Assembly: GCA_029006135.1 (NCBI GenBank)
Contig: JAQXGE010000022.1
Span: 1 to 58,554, forward strand
DNA: 58,554 nucleotides
Source: Oscillospiraceae bacterium
Lineage (GTDB): Bacteria > Bacillota > Clostridia > Oscillospirales > Ruminococcaceae
Reading direction: 5' to 3'
Shown here: positions 17,382 to 37,975 of the stretch, piece by piece
Position numbering within the stretch: position 1 is the stretch's first letter
Layout of the letters: the number at the start of each line of letters is the position of its first letter
Translations under genes and position numbers: made by a program
The notes under the pieces: generated by a model
Seen by the model: only the letters and a program-made list of their open reading frames with translations
The model's database searches: none
What the model was told of the DNA's origin: nothing

Positions 17382-17545
17382 TGAATACGCTCTTTTGTTG
17401 TGTGCCGCGTGGATCAGCCCCGATCCGCCGGAGAAGCAGGGTGAAATCCCCTCACAGTCCCGCTACTGTACAGTCAGATCGCCGGGCGGCGCACAGGGCT
17501 TCTTCACGATGGATGAGGAGGGCTGCTGTCTTTACAGGATAACTG
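17382..17545 (+). promoter_or_regulatory. Cobalamin (B12) riboswitch
   Basis: The hallmark B12-box region is present: GAAGCAGGGTGAAATCCC, then CACAGTCCCGCTACTGTA, preceded by TGTGCCGCG and followed by GCCGGGCGGC and CACGATGGATGAGG. It lies between a promoter and two genes consistent with corrinoid uptake. Confidence 0.9.
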
Positions 17546-30930: not shown

Positions 30931-32688
30931 ATGAACTACCAATACTACAATCCCCGCAAAGCTGCCCTTGATGCCGCGCGGGAACTGCTGACGGGCGCAG
31001 CCCATGCCGCCATGGCCGCCGGAACGCTGCCCGAGGCGGAACTCCCGGATTTCATCGTGGAGATTCCTGCCGATGTGAAGAACGGCGACATTGCCTCCAA
31101 CCTGGCCATGGCGGGCGCACGGGCATTCCACCGCGCACCGCGTCAGATTGCGCAGGCCATTGTGGACGCTCTGGACCTGACCGGTTCCCCGTTTGCGAAA
31201 GTCGAGATTGCCGGGCCGGGATTCATCAACCTGTTCCTCGGCGAGGCCTGGTTCACCGATGTGCTGCGTGCCGCCTGCTCCGAACCGGAGTACGGGCGCA
31301 CGCAGACCGGCAAGGGTAAGCGCTATAACGTTGAATTTGTTTCCGCCAACCCCACCGGACCGATGCACATGGGCAACGCGCGCGGCGGTGCGCTGGGTGA
31401 CTGTCTGGCCGCCTGCCTGGACTGGGCCGGCTACGATGTGACCCGTGAGTTCTATATCAACGATGCGGGCAACCAGATTCAGAAGTTCGGCAAGAGTCTG
31501 GCCATCCGGTATTTGCAGCTCTACCGCGGCGAGGAGGCTGTGCCTCTGCCGGAGGAGTGCTACCAGGGTGCCGACATCATCGAGCGCGCCAAAGAGTTTG
31601 CCGCCGTGCATGGGGATTCCTATATCAACCGCGACTTTGAGGAACTCAAGCAGGCGCTCATTGATGACGCACTGCCCAAGAATATTGCGGGGCTTCAGCG
31701 TGACCTTGGCAAGTACCGCATCGAATACGATGTCTGGTTCCATGAGAGTGACCTGCACAAGAGCGGTGCCGTGGACGAGGTCATTCAGATTCTGATGGAC
31801 AAAGGTGCCTGCTACCGTGCCGAGGACGGTGCCATCATGTACCGCAGTGCCCAGTACGCCGCCAAATACGGCGTTGCCAACCGCAAAAAGAGCGAGGACG
31901 GCAGCGAGGAGGAGGCCAAGGACGAGGTTCTGGTCCGTGCAAACGGAATTCCCACCTACTTTGCCGCTGACATTGCCTACCATTACAACAAGCTGAAGGT
32001 CCGCGGCTTTGATCGTGCCATCGACATTTGGGGTGCCGACCACCACGGCCATGTAGCCCGCATGAAGGGTGCCATGGACGCCGTGGGGCTTGACGGAACC
32101 AAGCTGGATGTTGTGCTGATGCAGATGGTCAATCTCATGCGTGACGGCAAGCCGGTCCGCATGAGCAAGCGCACCGGCAAGGCCATCACGCTGACCGATC
32201 TGCTGGACGAAGTGCCGATTGATTCCGCGCGCTTCTTCTTCAATCAGCGCGAAAGTTCCTCCACGCTGGACTTTGACCTTGATCTTGCCGTGCGCAATGA
32301 CAGCGAGAACCCCGTGTACTATGTCCAGTACGCGCACGCCCGCATCTGCTCGGTTCTGAAAAAGCTCGAGAGCGAAGGCATCACCTTTGCCGGCGCGCAG
32401 GCCGTGGATGCCTCGGTCCTGACTGACCCGTCTGAGCAGGCATTGCTTCGGATGCTGTCCGCTTTCCCGGCAGAGATTGCCGCCGCCGCAGAGAAGTACG
32501 ATCCGGCGCGCATCACCCGCTTTGTCATTGACCTGGCAACCGGCTTCCACCGTTTCTACAATGCCTGCCGGATCCTGGATGCCGAGCCGGCTGTCCAGCA
32601 GGGACGCATCGCGCTGTGCCTGGCCGTTCGCGGCGTGATCCGCAACGTGCTGACTATGTTTAAGGTCACGGTTCCGGAGAGTATGTAA
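30931..32688 (+). CDS. argS: Arginyl-tRNA synthetase
   Basis: 585 residues; ATG 30931 after GGAGGAGT. Class I synthetase: the HIGH-type motif NPTGPMHMGNARGGALGD and the KMSKS-type MSKRTGKA are both clear, with an N-terminal additional domain (residues 1-100) and a C-terminal DALR anticodon domain beginning at YVQYAHARICSVL. Charges tRNA-Arg. Last gene of the ddl-murI-DUF1934-argS string; a long hairpin follows. Confidence 0.96.
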   Translation: MNYQYYNPRKAALDAARELLTGAAHAAMAAGTLPEAELPDFIVEIPADVKNGDIASNLAMAGARAFHRAPRQIAQAIVDALDLTGSPFAKVEIAGPGFINLFLGEAWFTDVLRAACSEPEYGRTQTGKGKRYNVEFVSANPTGPMHMGNARGGALGDCLAACLDWAGYDVTREFYINDAGNQIQKFGKSLAIRYLQLYRGEEAVPLPEECYQGADIIERAKEFAAVHGDSYINRDFEELKQALIDDALPKNIAGLQRDLGKYRIEYDVWFHESDLHKSGAVDEVIQILMDKGACYRAEDGAIMYRSAQYAAKYGVANRKKSEDGSEEEAKDEVLVRANGIPTYFAADIAYHYNKLKVRGFDRAIDIWGADHHGHVARMKGAMDAVGLDGTKLDVVLMQMVNLMRDGKPVRMSKRTGKAITLTDLLDEVPIDSARFFFNQRESSSTLDFDLDLAVRNDSENPVYYVQYAHARICSVLKKLESEGITFAGAQAVDASVLTDPSEQALLRMLSAFPAEIAAAAEKYDPARITRFVIDLATGFHRFYNACRILDAEPAVQQGRIALCLAVRGVIRNVLTMFKVTVPESM

Positions 32689-32720
32689 AAATTTCGTTCT
32701 TTCGTCAAATATATAAAGCA

Positions 32721-32775
32721 AAAACCGCCAGGAGTGTGGGGGGGCACGCTGCCCCGCCGCTCCCGGCGGTTTTAT
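32721..32775 (+). terminator. Terminator of argS
   Basis: AAAACCGCC (32721-32729) pairs with GGCGGTTTT (32765-32773), with further GGAG/CTCC pairing inside; T-run follows. Confidence 0.8.
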
Positions 32776-32850
32776 TTTGGCAAAAGAAAAAGTTGGATGC
32801 GCACAGACACCCAACAGGTATATTATATCATATCTGTCAACGGGCTTTCC

Positions 32851-32876
32851 ATTCGTAAGATGCACGAATAATTCGT
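32851..32876. promoter_or_regulatory. Upstream repeat ATTCGT-N7-ACGAAT-A-ATTCGT before the large RNA promoter
   Basis: Perfect 6-bp inverted repeat ATTCGT (32851-32856) and ACGAAT (32864-32869), plus a third half-site ATTCGT (32871-32876), about 60-85 bp upstream of the predicted start of the large RNA. Looks like an activator or repressor site. Confidence 0.4.
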
Positions 32877-32899
32877 AATTTGTTTAGCGGTTCTGCGAA

Positions 32900-32928
32900 T
32901 AGACAAACTCTTAAGCGTATTGTATATT
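32900..32928 (+). promoter_or_regulatory. Promoter of the large structured RNA
   Basis: TAGACA (32900-32905), 17 bp, TATATT (32923-32928), with TATTATAG overlapping. Transcription would start near 32936. Confidence 0.6.
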
Positions 32929-32935
32929 ATAGTCA

Positions 32936-34030
32936 CAGAAAGAAAACAGCCGGAGATAAGGAACCAGCAGTTCCAAGAAAAAGCCGCTTTCAAAGGAAAC
33001 GGAAAAGGCTCGGCAGCATCCCCAATGATTCAGCAGGAAGATTTTTCAAAGGCTTTCAAAGGAAAGTCTCAATGGAAACACCTGATGATACAGGGAATCT
33101 GAAACCGAAAGGCCGCCGAATAAACTTGAAAGAGAAAAGGCAAAGCCGGCAGGATTTCGTAAGGAAGGAGGCTCAAGTCCAATGGCTAATTGTAAAGATC
33201 CCATTCATCACCGGCGGGCCTGGGCCTGCTGAAAAAGACGAACCACATCGACAGCCAAAGGTCATTACCTGAGTGAAAGAGAAAAGATTGATGGATCGGT
33301 TCGGCAAACTTTGAAGCAGCAGACCCAGGGACCCGTCAAAAGAAGTCCCCGCATTGAAGATAGATTGGATGAAGTTTTCAGCAAAGAGTATGACCGAATA
33401 AAACGCATAAAAGCGTTGGTTCTGATGAGAAACGGATAATTTTCGGACACATAACCCGACTTGAATATATCCCGAAAAAGAATCATTAGACAGTAAAGGG
33501 AAATTCCAATGAGCTGAAATAATTTCCCCTGACACAAGGAGATGTCAGGAGGTCAATACAAACGAAGCATTGTAAGGTTACCGGTGATCTTTATGAAAGA
33601 ATCCACCCCGCCGAACAGTTCGTTCTTCACCTGATCAGCAAGGAGAAACTCCAATGTACTAAGAGTAAAGAGGAGACAATCCTCTGGCATCAGACCCGCT
33701 GATTGCACTGTATCCCCGTTCCAGAGATGCTATCCCAATCGGAAATGTCAATTCAGTGGCTCCGTTCGCAAGAATCCAGTTCATTGAAAACCGAAGACCT
33801 TGATTGGAACTGCAAATAACGAACCAAAGGGATTGCAATCCATGACCGAAACTGACCGTCATTCAACGGAATAAAATCCATCGAGTGCATAAGCAATCGA
33901 AAGTAAGGATGAGGTTGCCATGAAAATGAGCAAACAGTCCGAAAAATGATGACCAAGGGTATGAGGCTATGACTCCAATTAAGTAGAACCGCCCCGGCAC
34001 CACAAGGGTAGAAGGTGCCGGGGCTTTTTT
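32936..34030 (+). ncRNA. Candidate large (about 1.1 kb) structured non-coding RNA
   Basis: About 1,095 nt between a promoter and a perfect intrinsic terminator with no credible coding frame; it is A/G-rich on this strand and much less GC-rich than its neighbours. Many local helices are visible: GGAAC/GTTCC (32960-32974), CCTG/CAGG (33081-33094), AACGC/GCGTT (33402-33417), GGATA..TCGG/CCGA..TATCC (33434-33472), GGGAAATT/AATTTCCC (33498-33528), CTGAC/GTCAG (33529-33548), GGAG/CTCC (33642-33652), AGAGGA/TCCTCT (33669-33685), ATCAG/CTGAT (33689-33703), and nested GTTCG..CAGTTC/GAACTG..CGAAC (33764-33824). GAAA-type loops and A-rich joints are frequent. I find no group II domain V and no match to OLE, GOLLD or ROOL as I remember them. 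Role unknown. Confidence 0.65.
33991..34030 (+). terminator. Intrinsic terminator of the large RNA
   Basis: GCCCCGGCACC (33991-34001) pairs perfectly with GGTGCCGGGGC (34014-34024), followed by six T. Confidence 0.92.
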
Positions 34031-34164
34031 GCGGCTTGTGTCGGCTTTTTTCGTCCGCCCTTCCCTGCCCGAAATCCGCCTGCGGCTATGATTGCCGCCA
34101 TGCCGGACACAGGAATCATTCCGCCGCCGGCATAGCAAAAACGCCGCCGCATAAAAATCAACCA

Positions 34165-34218
34165 AAAGCAAAAAATCCCCGATTCCCGGGCTGTCATGCT
34201 CAGGTATCGGGGATTTTT
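34165..34218 (-). terminator. Terminator of the XRE repressor gene
   Basis: AAAAATCCCCGAT (34171-34183) pairs with ATCGGGGATTTTT (34206-34218) around a 22-nt loop; on the minus strand TTTTTGCTTTT follows. Positions 34031-34164 and 34219-34323 show no gene. Confidence 0.7.
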
Positions 34219-34323
34219 AACATCTTTTGCCATAAGATTCAGTATCTTATCCGCGGGCCTGCCGCAGACAGCGTCCCGACAAGTCGAGGCGGGCACCGCG
34301 GCGTACAGGCCGATTTATAAAAT

Positions 34324-34680
34324 TCACTCTTTATCGCCCTTACTTTGGTTCAGTTCCGCGCGCAGGCGGATCAGCATGGCAATATCTTCCTTATCCTGTT
34401 CGGTGAGGGAACCGCGCAGCCCCTGATAGGCCGCAATCGGCTCATCCCGGATGAGGTCATCCAGTGTACTTGTGCTGTCCGTCATGCCGTACAGCTCGTT
34501 GGGTGTCAGGTCCAGCACTTCACAGAGTTGGCGAATCAAATCTCCGTTCGGTTCGGTGAGATTGTTTTCCCAGTTGCTGACGGTTGTGTTCTGCACGCCA
34601 AGACGGTCGGCAAGTTCCTTTTGGGTTAGCCCCTTTGCCTTGCGCGCCGCCTGAATCCGCGGTCCAAAATTGATTGACAT
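34324..34680 (-). CDS. XRE family repressor of the phage-tail module
   Basis: 118 residues; ATG 34680 with AGGAGGTGA upstream (better than the GTG at 34689). The N-terminal HTH reads IQAARKAKGLTQKELADRLGVQNTTVSNWENNLTEP, followed by LIRQLCEVLDLTPNELYG, a lambda-CI/Cro-type DNA-binding domain. The C-terminal 50 residues are helical and charged (LTEQDKEDIAMLIRLRAELNQ), probably for dimerisation; there is no S24 peptidase domain, so RecA-driven self-cleavage is not expected. It faces the tail-gene operon across a 157-bp region containing two palindromes and divergent promoters. Confidence 0.88.
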   Translation of the reverse strand: MSINFGPRIQAARKAKGLTQKELADRLGVQNTTVSNWENNLTEPNGDLIRQLCEVLDLTPNELYGMTDSTSTLDDLIRDEPIAAYQGLRGSLTEQDKEDIAMLIRLRAELNQSKGDKE

Positions 34681-34698
34681 CTGCCTCACCTCCTCTTA

Positions 34699-34727
34699 AC
34701 TTTACCACAGCGCAGAGAAATTGTAAA
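34699..34727 (-). promoter_or_regulatory. Promoter of the XRE repressor gene
   Basis: Minus strand TTTACA (34722-34727), 17 bp, TAAAGT (34699-34704). Confidence 0.55.
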
Positions 34728-34740
34728 GAAAAAAATCCAG

Positions 34741-34752
34741 ATTTCATGAAAT
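34741..34752. promoter_or_regulatory. Operator-like palindrome 1
   Basis: Perfect 12-bp palindrome ATTTCATGAAAT, upstream of both divergent promoters. Probable repressor or co-regulator site. Confidence 0.4.
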
Positions 34753-34758
34753 TTTTGA

Positions 34759-34786
34759 TTGACATTCCATTTTTTATGAATATAAT
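34759..34786 (+). promoter_or_regulatory. Promoter of the phage-tail operon
   Basis: Consensus TTGACA (34759-34764), 16 bp, consensus TATAAT (34781-34786): the strongest promoter in the window, so tight repression would be expected. Confidence 0.8.
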
Positions 34787-34793
34787 TAAAGAT

Positions 34794-34814
34794 GATTCCA
34801 GAATTTATGGAATC
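34794..34814. promoter_or_regulatory. Operator-like palindrome 2 at the tail-operon start site
   Basis: GATTCCA (34794-34800), 7 bp, TGGAATC (34808-34814), perfect arms, beginning at the predicted transcription start. A repressor bound here would block the tail promoter. Confidence 0.6.
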
Positions 34815-34837
34815 GAAAATTATAAGGAGGAATGTCT

Positions 34838-35302
34838 ATGCAGAATCTTACCATTGACACCGGCGTGCAGTGTTTTGCCGTCAACGGAGGCCCCGAGAAC
34901 GGCGGCGGGGTGCTGCGCTTCAACCCCGGTGACCCGGGTGTGTACAGCCGTTTTCTTGCGCTGGAACCCGAGATGAAGGAACTGGAACACAGCCTGAGCG
35001 AAAAAGGTCAGCAGCTGCCCGAGAAAGACGGCAAGGGCGCGCTTGAGCTTTTGGACGAGGCGGACCGCCGTGCCAAGGCACTGCTGGCGGAAGTGTTCGG
35101 TCCCGGGAATGACTTTGACTCCATTTTGGGCGGTGCGAGCCTGATGGCGGTGGCATCCAACGGGGAGCGGGTCATTACCAACCTGTTTGCCGCCCTGCAG
35201 CCCATTTTGGAGCAGGGTGCGCAAACCTGCGCACAGCAGCGCGCCGAGACGGCTGTGGCACAGGCCAACGCCCGCCGCGCCGCGCGGGGAGACAGTGAAT
35301 GA
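34838..35302 (+). CDS. Phage tail assembly chaperone-like protein
   Basis: 154 residues; ATG 34838 is 7 nt after AAGGAGG (the ATG at 34832 is too close). VLRFNPGDPGVYSRF near residue 30 and FDSILGGASLMAVASNGERVITNLFAALQPIL in the C-terminal half match the small alpha-helical chaperones (gpG-like, DUF6673 type) that lie before the tape measure in siphophages. It is the first gene of the tail operon. The major tail tube gene that normally precedes it is absent. Confidence 0.7.
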   Translation: MQNLTIDTGVQCFAVNGGPENGGGVLRFNPGDPGVYSRFLALEPEMKELEHSLSEKGQQLPEKDGKGALELLDEADRRAKALLAEVFGPGNDFDSILGGASLMAVASNGERVITNLFAALQPILEQGAQTCAQQRAETAVAQANARRAARGDSE

Positions 35303-35868
35303 CAGATGCCTGGTGCCTGCCGAGCTGCCTGACGGTGGAGGGGAAAAGCTACGGAATCCACGCGGATTACCGGGATGTTCTGGACGTAATCCAGTGCCTG
35401 AACGGCAAAGACGAGCCGGAATTTATCCGCTGGTATGTAGCTTTGTCGCTTTTCTACAAGGAGGAGGTCCCGGTCTGTCACCGAAGTGCGGCGATGAATG
35501 CCATGGCAGATTTCATCGCCTGCGGTCAGCCGCAGTCCTGTGCGCCGGGGCCAAAATTGCTGGATTGGCAGCGGGATGCCGCGGTGATTGTGGCGGACGT
35601 GAACCGGGTCGCCGGGCAGGAAGTGCGTGCGCTCCCCTTTTTGCACTGGTGGACCTTTATCGCCTACTTCAATGCTATCGGGGAGGGACAGCTCTCCACC
35701 CTGCTGCGTGTGCGCGGCAAATTGCGGCGCGGGCGCAAACTTGAACCTTGGGAGATGGATTATTACCGCGAAAATCGTGCTCTTGTGGACGGCCGCGAAC
35801 CGCCGACCGTCCAGGAGCAGCAGGAAAAAGCCCGGCTGGAACGGATTTTGGCCGGAAAAGAACCATAA
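35299..35868 (+). CDS. Gp15-like second tail assembly chaperone
   Basis: 189 residues, overlapping the previous gene by 4 nt (ATGA). The segment LPFLHWWTFIAYFNAIGEGQLSTLL followed by R-G-K-x-R-R-G-R-K-L-E-P-W-E is the core of bacteriophage Gp15 proteins, which occupy the gpT position between the first chaperone and the tape measure. In many phages the second chaperone is made by frameshift; here it is a separate overlapping gene. Probably works with the preceding product on the tape measure. Confidence 0.8.
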   Translation: MTDAWCLPSCLTVEGKSYGIHADYRDVLDVIQCLNGKDEPEFIRWYVALSLFYKEEVPVCHRSAAMNAMADFIACGQPQSCAPGPKLLDWQRDAAVIVADVNRVAGQEVRALPFLHWWTFIAYFNAIGEGQLSTLLRVRGKLRRGRKLEPWEMDYYRENRALVDGREPPTVQEQQEKARLERILAGKEP

Positions 35869-35879
35869 GGAGGTGACGT

Positions 35880-37601
35880 ATGGCAAATACTTATGCGGGT
35901 TCAATCAATGTTGACACTTCATCCGGCAATCAAAGTTCGAGCGTGCGTGTGCTCTCAGAGGAATTGAGCGGGCTTGAGGACCAGCTGCAGAAGGTTAGTC
36001 AGGCAATGGATACCGCTTTTGCCGCGCAGCAGGTACAGGCGCTGGCAAAAGGCACCACTGCCGCCGCCAAGGCTCAGAACCAACTGGCATCCGCCGTCCG
36101 CAAGGCCGGGCAGTCAGCCCGTCATTCCCTTGCAGATTTTGATGAACTGAACCGTTTGGCGAGCGCGGCCACCTCGAGCAGCAGTTCCTCGAGCCGATCC
36201 AGCAAAAAAAATACCAAAAGCACTGCGGAGAAAAGCGCAGAGATGCAGGAAGCGCCCACCGAGAGTGCTCTGGATGGGCTGAAAGATTTTTTCTCCGTTC
36301 TGCGTGAAAATCTTGAACCCTCCGCCGTTCTATGGCAAAACACCTGGGCGCAGATGAAACAGACCGCCGCCGAGGTCTGGCCGCAGATTCGGCAGGCGGC
36401 ACAGGATTGTTGGGACAATGCGCTCTCTCCCCTGCTGCTCAATCTGCGGGACGTTTTTCTTCCCGGGGTTATCAACAGTTTCTCGGCCGCTTTTGCGCCG
36501 CTTGTCAGCGGGGCAGGCATCACCGCGATTCAGGCATTTGGAGAAGGATTTGTCTGGAGCTGCGGGATTCTCAGTGAGGCGGTAAACAGTGTGGTCATTC
36601 CTGCGCTCAACCTGCTGCTGACGGTTTGGCAGGGAATGATGGAGGGGATTTCCTCCGCCTGGGCCACCTACGGGGAGCCGCTGGCACAGGGTATCCTGCT
36701 GGCGTTCACCAATTTTGAGGAAATCCTCACTCTGGTGTGGCAGAACACGCTTCAGCCTTTTTTCCAGTTCTGTATCGAGAGTGTTGGCACGCTCTGGGAG
36801 CAGCATCTGCAGCCGCTCTGGAATAACCTGACGATGCTTTTCAGCGAAATTGGCCTGTGTGTGCTGAATTTCTGGAACGGTGTGCTCGCACCGCTGGCCG
36901 CGTGGCTGGCGGAAAATTTCGGTCCCGTATTTGAACTGGTATTTGAGGCCATTGCAGGGGCCGTAATCGGGACTGTGGGTGTTCTTTCTGATTTGATGAA
37001 CACCGCAGTTGAACTGTTCCGGGGCGTGACGGAGTTCCTGAACGCCGTGTTCCGCCATGACTGGGATGCCGCCTGGATTGCCGTGCAAAGCACGGTGATT
37101 GGCGTGTGGGAAGGCATTACCTCTGCGGTAAAAGGTGCGGTGAACACCGTTATCGGCTTTGTCAACGGGATGATTTCCGCCGTTGTGGCCGGTGTAAACA
37201 CCGTCACACGGGCCCTCAACGGCCTTTCTTTCACCATCCCGGACTGGGTGCCGGGAATCGGCGGGAACCATTTTGGGTTTAATATCGGCACTGTCACCGC
37301 ACCGCAGATTCCCTACCTTGCGCAGGGTGCAGTCATTCCTCCCAACCGGGAATTTCTGGCCGTACTGGGTGACCAGACAAGCGGCACCAACGTGGAAGCG
37401 CCGCTCTCCACCATCCAGCAGGCTGTGGCTGAGGTCATGGATGACAATATTACCGCCATGATGGCCGGATTTGAAGCGCTCCGCGATGAGCTGAGCGCCC
37501 TGCGCGGCGATGTGCAGAGCATCGAGGTTGGCGATGAAGTCATCGGGCGTGCCGCCAGACGCTGGAACCGAAAGATGGCAATTCTGGGAGGTGCACTCTG
37601 A
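35880..37601 (+). CDS. Short phage tail tape measure protein
   Basis: 573 residues; ATG 35880 after AAGGAGGTG. An N-terminal helical part with a Ser-rich stretch (about 95-115) leads to long amphipathic/hydrophobic segments rich in Trp (repeated W-x-x-x-x-x-P, about 140-420). The tail-end motif IPDWVPGIGGNHFGFNIG, PYLAQGAVIPPNREFLAVLGDQ is typical of Firmicute siphophage tape measures. At roughly 1.5 Angstrom per residue this predicts a tail of only about 85 nm. No peptidase or lysozyme domain seen. The stop overlaps the next start (TGATG). Confidence 0.85.
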   Translation: MANTYAGSINVDTSSGNQSSSVRVLSEELSGLEDQLQKVSQAMDTAFAAQQVQALAKGTTAAAKAQNQLASAVRKAGQSARHSLADFDELNRLASAATSSSSSSSRSSKKNTKSTAEKSAEMQEAPTESALDGLKDFFSVLRENLEPSAVLWQNTWAQMKQTAAEVWPQIRQAAQDCWDNALSPLLLNLRDVFLPGVINSFSAAFAPLVSGAGITAIQAFGEGFVWSCGILSEAVNSVVIPALNLLLTVWQGMMEGISSAWATYGEPLAQGILLAFTNFEEILTLVWQNTLQPFFQFCIESVGTLWEQHLQPLWNNLTMLFSEIGLCVLNFWNGVLAPLAAWLAENFGPVFELVFEAIAGAVIGTVGVLSDLMNTAVELFRGVTEFLNAVFRHDWDAAWIAVQSTVIGVWEGITSAVKGAVNTVIGFVNGMISAVVAGVNTVTRALNGLSFTIPDWVPGIGGNHFGFNIGTVTAPQIPYLAQGAVIPPNREFLAVLGDQTSGTNVEAPLSTIQQAVAEVMDDNITAMMAGFEALRDELSALRGDVQSIEVGDEVIGRAARRWNRKMAILGGAL

Positions 37602-37975
37602 TGCTGACAAAGACCGAGCTTTTCAAGATTGACGGTGCCGCCATGTATGCACCCGCAAACGAACAGGCACACAGTTTTGAGGACCTCGACAGCGCCGACA
37701 GCGGACGCGATGAGAGCGGTATTATGCACCGCTTCCGTGTGCGTGAGAAGGTCGGAAGCTGGAGTTTTGAATACCCCATCTGCACCGAAGCGGAGAAAAA
37801 TGCCATTCTGGCGCAGTTCGCAGGGAAGGAGACTTTTTCCTTCACACATCCCGGAAAAAACGACAGCACTGTGCCCGAAACCTGCACCGCTTACATGAGC
37901 AAGTACAGCATTGCCTGGCACAGTGCAAAAAACGGACTGTGGCACAACCTGAAATTCAACATTATTGAATGTTAA
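37601..37975 (+). CDS. Phage tail protein next to the hub (DUF6711-like)
   Basis: 124 residues. Beta-rich small protein with LFKIDGAAMYAP, RVREKVGSWSFEYP, FSFTHPGKND and WHNLKFNIIEC. Size and position between tape measure and hub match the distal-tail-associated proteins of Firmicute prophages. The assignment rests on position and overall look; no catalytic motif. Its stop codon overlaps the Shine-Dalgarno of the following gene. Confidence 0.6.
   Translation: MLTKTELFKIDGAAMYAPANEQAHSFEDLDSADSGRDESGIMHRFRVREKVGSWSFEYPICTEAEKNAILAQFAGKETFSFTHPGKNDSTVPETCTAYMSKYSIAWHSAKNGLWHNLKFNIIEC

Follow-up and report, generated by a model that had tools for sequence, protein, structure and literature searches.

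What does a stretch of about 1.1 kb, lying between argS and a set of phage-like genes in a Gemmiger genome, give rise to if it carries no frame of protein size? The stretch is part of a 58,554-nt piece of DNA (contig JAQXGE010000022.1, assembly GCA_029006135.1; here called the window), and an initial annotation made from the sequence alone had described it as an apparently non-coding, hairpin-rich transcript representing a new class of large structured RNA. Comparison with homologues points to an RNA in which the conserved parts are very short, putatively ribosome-engaging reading frames (micro-ORFs).

The locus and its borders

In the window, argS is located 0.2 kb upstream of 32936–34030 (+ strand), and phage-like genes lie downstream. 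The borders of the unit are defined by the following elements.

32894–32928, + strand: promoter, with a conserved TGCGAATAGAC that includes the −35 box TAGACA (32900–32905), a 17-nt spacer and the −10 box TATATT (32923–32928)
32936–34030, + strand: predicted transcript, its start assumed to be ~7 nt past the −10 box; the prediction is based on the promoter, the terminator and collinear homologues
33991–34030, + strand: intrinsic terminator, with perfect 11-bp arms (33991–34001 and 34014–34024) followed by six T

The initial annotation had placed a promoter (TAGACA-17-TATATT) at 32900–32928 and a perfect 11-bp terminator with six T at 33991–34030, and both are borne out. In homologues, the promoter at this position is much more strongly conserved, with TGCGAATRGAC followed by TATAGTATAG or TATAAT. 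This element is present in the aligned homologues and in the loci of two further genera, g143 and g114, while the pattern was not found in g114 loci L151–L154 and L162–L164. Promoter-like sites number nine in 32600–34900, against 2.8 expected. A second conserved stretch, ATGYACAAAT with TTG ~15 nt later, lies upstream of the −35 box (~32850–32905 in the window, and in homologues) and looks like a regulator site. A terminator-like hairpin of argS itself (32727–32775) precedes the promoter of the RNA. The low G+C content described earlier also stands: it is 0.44–0.45 inside the unit and about 0.55–0.63 in the flanking genes, and the strand is A-rich. Just past the RNA, the phage-like genes (34324–37975) include those for an HTH repressor-like protein (minus strand) and a Phage_Gp15 protein; Pfam gave no match for the other four proteins tested in this interval.

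The longest ATG/GTG/TTG frame on the strand of the RNA is 130 aa long and has a TTG start. A transposase-like frame seemed at first to follow micro-ORF 1; a transposase remnant was rejected because homologues close this frame after 16 codons (30 of 37, the 30 that were translated). The same counts give no sign of one conserved long frame, as a protein gene or a pseudogene would have. The low G+C content, broken long frames, length variation and tandem copies in two genomes (G046 and G202) might suggest that a gene or mobile element has decayed here, but the promoter, terminator, starts and stops are conserved in independent lineages. In addition, no match was found in viral contigs (searched with the pattern), in phages (queries W and L137) or in plasmids (query L137 only), which sets aside a phage- or plasmid-borne RNA and makes a decayed remnant extremely improbable.

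Comparison with known RNAs

At gathering score, the only Rfam 15 match in the whole window is an AdoCbl-II (cobalamin) riboswitch at 17417–17492 (+ strand, 44 bits). At E ≤ 10, the region 32660–34340 gave eight matches, all far below gathering and none credible. OLE, GOLLD and ROOL, the signature parts of which the initial annotation had failed to recognise, are likewise absent from the covariance-model matches at gathering score. The RNA is not 6S RNA, whose above-cut-off match lies elsewhere (G000:C26:3958-4163, 58.3 bits), nor tmRNA, for which ARAGORN reported 0 genes in the window. A search of titles and the beginnings of abstracts in PubMed Central, a collection that leaves out most subscription journals, gave nothing on such an RNA or on a micro-ORF array. 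Relative to Rfam 15 and to this literature, neither of which listed anything equivalent, the micro-ORF array RNA appears to be new.

An array of micro-ORFs

In the homologue alignment, conservation comes in blocks that correspond to AGGAG-type sites, AUGs and stops. They delimit five conserved micro-ORFs led by Shine–Dalgarno (SD) sites (1, a, 2, 3 and 4) in the window, where no credible frame had been seen before.

33182–33232, + strand: micro-ORF 1, 16 codons, MANCKDPIHHRRAWAC and stop, SD site AGGAGG 10 nt upstream
33509–33517, + strand: possible extra 2-codon micro-ORF, MS and stop, GGGA upstream; not conserved
33593–33634, + strand: micro-ORF a, 13 codons, MKESTPPNSSFFT and stop, the stop 19 nt ahead of micro-ORF 2
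33654–33662, + strand: micro-ORF 2, 2 codons, MY and stop, SD site AGGAG 8 nt upstream
33920–33949, + strand: micro-ORF 3, 9 codons, MKMSKQSEK and stop
33969–33986, + strand: micro-ORF 4, 5 codons, MTPIK and stop

A scan of 43 transcripts with a duplex-energy threshold found 178 SD-led frames of up to 20 codons, whereas the mean for dinucleotide shuffles is 38.2 and the antisense strand has 22; the threshold is strict and leaves 13 of the 43 transcripts with two or fewer such frames. Among 66 transcripts, micro-ORF 1 was recognised in 64, with 16 codons in 60 and 15 in four, and it ends in TGA (62) or TAA (2); the rule missed L036 and L162, of which L036 does carry it. The stop of micro-ORF 4 is at the same codon (codon 6) in 65 of 66 (TAA 50, TAG 11, TGA 4; open in L027); five g114 genomes were recruited with a pattern already demanding TRR at the last stop. 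Micro-ORF 3 was found in 57 of 66 transcripts and ends in TGA (23), TAG (18) or TAA (16); having a stop is part of its definition, and the 57 of 57 stops are not independent of it.

Each of the 66 transcripts contains at least one conserved SD-led frame of 2–4 codons, the feature by which a minigene was recognised. These frames are mostly MY, MI or similar to MYN, MYR or MYS. The bar minigenes of lambda are a known two-codon counterpart. The g114 RNA has micro-ORF 1 (MVDMEPAQFGQTVGVR-like) first, followed by a (MK...FE), MY or MI, b (MKFI...PHSNS-like in its short form), MY, 3 and MTPKK, and locus L136 has a duplicated block. The sequence of micro-ORF 1 differs from genus to genus, while its length is similar.

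The initial annotation had treated a conserved protein in one frame as one of the findings that would overturn it. No such protein emerged; conservation is instead seen in many tiny frames. The label "non-coding" is nevertheless inaccurate in its details, as the conserved part consists of successive SD-led micro-ORFs with kept stops and near-fixed spacers. A purely non-coding structured RNA, in which AUGs and stops are accidental, would account for the lack of a long frame, the hairpins and the missing protein family. Set against it are the excess of SD-led micro-ORFs over shuffled and antisense sequence, the near-fixed spacers and the exchange of one stop codon for another in micro-ORF 4 and in the stop-defined micro-ORF 3, so this reading is highly improbable.

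Spacing between micro-ORFs

The distance from the stop of micro-ORF 3 to the start of micro-ORF 4 is 19–23 nt in 56 of 57 pairs. Short frames starting with ATGTAC, ATGATT or ATGATC number 110, and for 87 of them a frame of 8–20 codons ends 6–60 nt upstream. The spacer is 15–22 nt long in 68 of these 87 pairs (mode 19), counts that are to be read with the rules behind them, which choose a frame within 6–60 nt or about 9–42 nt. The RNA, as sliced, spans lengths of 458–1485 nt, while the paired spacers are nearly fixed (mostly 16–23 nt). This near-constancy suggests that a ribosome on the first stop would cover the second SD site.

Selection on the encoded peptides

Codon changes were scored as synonymous:non-synonymous in the true frame and in the two shifted frames. 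Synonymous changes are in excess in Gemmiger micro-ORF 1 (10:10 in frame, 3:17 and 5:10 shifted), micro-ORF 4 (6:5; 1:6 and 0:16) and g114 micro-ORF b (11:9; 5:14 and 1:21). The excess is weak in Gemmiger micro-ORF a (15:40; 10:54 and 9:38), and little or none is seen in g114 micro-ORF 1 (8:18; 9:28 and 9:32). It is absent from micro-ORF 3 of both Gemmiger (2:14; 7:16 and 5:13) and g114 (4:17; 9:24 and 7:19), and from g114 micro-ORF a (7:25; 6:21 and 5:23). The homologues are related, so counts across them, here and above, do not represent independent events. Given this mixture, starts and stops are the common denominator and the peptides are conserved only in part. The conserved micro-ORFs are very probably under selection for start and stop, and the missing excess in, for example, micro-ORF 3 fits, without proving it, a need for the ribosome but not for the peptide.

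Of 34 Gemmiger transcripts, 21 have a short frame that encodes PPN or PPD, which counts as evidence for micro-ORF a, and PPN occurs in g143 and L136; these frames were counted by searching for the motif itself, without a control. In one E. coli data set, PPD and PPN are reported solely among those diprolyl sites that pause (PMC4140641). We regard the PPN/PPD frames as a lead to possible pausing sites.

The RNA could also be a micropeptide mRNA, an operon of tiny peptides that act themselves, for example as signals, on the membrane or on the ribosome. The peptide-level conservation of Gemmiger micro-ORF 1, micro-ORF 4 and micro-ORF b and the recurrent PPN/PPD frames speak for it. The two-residue products MY, MI and MF, the unlike sequences of micro-ORF 1 in different genera and the drift of micro-ORF 3 and g114 micro-ORF a are hard to reconcile with it, and we consider it unlikely.

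RNA structure

The minimum free energy of 32936–33985 is 3.0 sd below that of 60 dinucleotide shuffles. Six family members give fold z-scores from −0.8 to −3.4, and because of this span the description "hairpin-rich" is valid only partly. The helices named in the initial annotation (33434–33472, 33498–33548 and 33764–33824) fall in length-variable stretches that do not align across homologues, and are not conserved. Two small hairpins near micro-ORF 1 were compared between homologues.

33212–33231, + strand: hairpin covering the 3' part of micro-ORF 1, CGGCGGGC/GCCUGCUG with loop CUGG; pairs retained mostly by one-sided changes
33257–33272, + strand: hairpin after micro-ORF 1, AGGUCAUUACCU; four pairs changed on both sides, in one sequence each

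Around micro-ORF 1 (alignment A2), 4 of 20 pairs show both-sided changes, each in one sequence. In the Gemmiger micro-ORF a module (A1), 3 of 25 pairs do, with CAGG/CCUG replaced by CAGA/UCUG in 3 of 14 sequences. In g114, the stem surrounding micro-ORF a (A3) shows no covariation (0 of 15 pairs), and in the fold of 15 g114 sequences, one of which (L155) is empty in the alignment, 18 of 153 pairs changed on both sides. Internal covariation thus appears modest, and these pair counts suggest local structure, not a rigid large RNA. The terminator is present in 64 of 66 homologues (one, L030, was wrongly sliced) with 40 different 5' arms, which indicates compensatory turnover.

The claim of a structured RNA has some support in the local hairpins, with their few compensatory changes, and in the terminators; the long variable inserts folded in the initial annotation are not conserved. 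These data bear on another reading, that of a regulatory RNA acting in trans through its structure or by base pairing, with its micro-ORFs translated only to protect or remodel it. Its own promoter and terminator, the fold z-scores, the few compensatory pairs and the long inserts between micro-ORFs are compatible with such an RNA; the scant covariation beyond terminators and the location of the best-conserved sequence in SD sites, starts and stops are not what it leads one to expect. We rate it as rather improbable.

Distribution

Searched at the DNA level, 35 of 100 genomes gave a match. In Gemmiger, the genus of the window, 33 of 35 genomes carry the RNA (its own and 32 of 34 others; G013 and G030 lack a match). 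Two of 26 genomes from other genera of the family were matched, one of them (G056) by a 27-nt match that was not accepted, and none of 39 genomes from the rest of the order. A conserved-block pattern retrieved 28 stretches, mostly from Gemmiger and a few from Subdoligranulum, Faecalibacterium or Acutalibacter. In the second genus, g114 (probably Faecalibacterium), the RNA is present in 28 of 31 genomes and in all 22 good ones. A match with one mismatch in G151 was not accepted. The G046 copy used as a DNA query against the family matched 33 of 297 genomes at E ≤ 0.01, the weak matches being mostly 20–50 nt long at E > 0.0001 and not accepted.

Some genomes have more than one copy. In genus g13, G046 (L056) and G202 (L139) each contain two tandem copies, every one with a promoter, micro-ORFs and a terminator. 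G005 and G027 have extra copies elsewhere: L036 and L037 (G005) and L039 (G027) are second or third copies away from argS, much shorter (~0.46–0.55 kb), and possibly a minimal form of the RNA.

Model R1, built on the 3' end of the RNA, matched 26 of 396 family genomes, 17 strongly (E < 1e-8; only in g1, g13, g86 and g114) and nine weakly. Six of eight weak loci were inspected (L186 and L187 were left out); L188 is a true match and five are coding or chance. The true match, in G260 of g143 (E = 0.008), has the same promoter, MKSEEPVQFWQVCAD, MVRANLPPNNI, MY, MTFKVQSEK, MY, MKPII and a terminator, and is not beside argS. The motif of the two-codon MY unit occurs at 30 sites in 26 of 396 family genomes from nine further genera, compared to six sites in five genomes for the reversed-pattern control. 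The 15 MY-motif loci inspected have further micro-ORFs, less clearly so in g102 and g138. At 18 MY loci, micro-ORFs besides that of the motif number 50 on the sense strand, five on the antisense strand, eight in equal stretches upstream and 18 in block shuffles. No MY motif was matched in 370 of 396 family genomes, and the RNA is therefore either patchy or mostly too divergent to be seen. Outside the family, the motif occurs in 2 of 252 genomes against six control sites, so the numbers alone give no support there. By inspection only, L219 is a candidate compact member (MKGFLRYRQNT, MG, MY, a GTG-started frame and a terminator; three further micro-ORFs at threshold), and L220, with a promoter-like site and a final hairpin seen by eye and 0 further micro-ORFs at threshold, is less so.

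The RNA lies within ~0.5 kb downstream of argS at 29 of 36 Gemmiger loci, 10 of 28 g114 loci and 2 of 2 g13 loci. This raises the question of whether it is a 3' element of argS or a leader or attenuator of the next gene. Synteny with argS is common, not universal: adjacency is missing at 18 of 28 g114 loci, at all seven more distant loci tested and at the second copies in G005 and G027, although some flanks are short (six loci have <650 nt of upstream sequence, one of them still positive). The RNA has its own promoter, the terminator follows the last micro-ORF in 64 of 66, and no downstream gene cluster is common to all loci. A role in regulating argS was set aside, and we regard a leader or 3' element as very unlikely.

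Proposed mode of action

As for the new class of large structured RNA proposed at the outset, an independent, conserved transcription unit without an Rfam 15 match that is found across the family is upheld. Transcription, translation and function of the RNA we infer from sequence. Our main reading, with a probability of roughly 45%, is that the locus yields an independently transcribed, dedicated ribosome-engaging RNA built of micro-ORF modules. The repeated unit would consist of an SD site, a micro-ORF of ~7–17 codons, a stop, a ~16–23-nt spacer containing the next SD site, and a micro-ORF of 2–5 codons, typically MY, or MTPKK at the 3' end. Ribosomes would initiate at the micro-ORF starts, and a ribosome at the first stop would cover, or hand over to, the next SD site, where the very short frame would lead to near-immediate termination; local stems may gate access. 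The RNA would then act via ribosome occupancy, sensing or buffering translation capacity, with ribosomes also shielding it. The peptides, which drift between genera, would not be the chief agents, and the array would amount to a succession of many minigene-like elements, the RNA being a product in its own right. Candidate effects are ribosome titration, sensing of initiation or termination and exposure of parts of the RNA.

A wider and more doubtful proposal is that of a new class of bacterial RNA, an order-wide, stand-alone micro-ORF array with fixed modules (a longer micro-ORF, 16–23 nt and a 2–5-codon micro-ORF) that might be a sink for ribosomes or might sense or count initiation and termination events; the PPN/PPD pause codons of some members would then perhaps report on elongation factor P status.

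Screens for bacterial RNAs place a transcript in one of two classes, protein genes or non-coding structured RNAs. A micro-ORF array RNA belongs to neither class: a frame of protein size is missing, yet SD sites, starts, stops and spacers are its best-conserved features. If ribosomes do work along it, this would be a transcript whose product is ribosome traffic and, its hosts being common gut bacteria, a natural system in which to study re-initiation, termination on minigenes and ribosome protection of RNA. Such loci would be missed by gene finders because the frames are too short, and by RNA-family searches because there is little covariation.

Comparison with known systems

Two-codon leader minigenes (axe-txe, LEE1) and strong SD sites are reported to work through ribosome occupancy and to protect RNA; the minigenes act in cis, and how far away the next start lies is of importance (PMC8708949). 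The elements are alike in build (SD site, AUG, one codon, stop), but those minigenes are single and stand ahead of a gene, whereas here an array is found in a stand-alone transcript without a gene. OLE, ROOL and GOLLD, as presented in PMC12286853, are large ornate bacterial RNAs without a long frame and are thought to be independently transcribed, both of which apply here too. Unlike them, the RNA described here has no Rfam match, and its micro-ORFs are conserved while its inserts are not.

RNAIII is a dual-function small RNA, regulatory and holding a small frame. The present RNA resembles it in being regulatory-looking with small frames, but contains several micro-ORFs of 2–17 codons and no long frame. 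Leader-peptide attenuators share short frames with a stop in or near a stem; here, no regulated gene follows and the terminator is at the very end. The animal tarsal-less RNA is polycistronic for micropeptides and likewise has several micro-ORFs on one apparently non-coding RNA, but the array described here differs in its bacterial SD sites, two-codon frames, near-fixed spacers and drifting peptides. Some of its start regions (GAGGTGATCC-N-ATG and GGAGTGAGTCCGATG, e.g. in L144 and L209) resemble what we take to be a long complement of the 16S rRNA 3' end, extending beyond the usual SD core.
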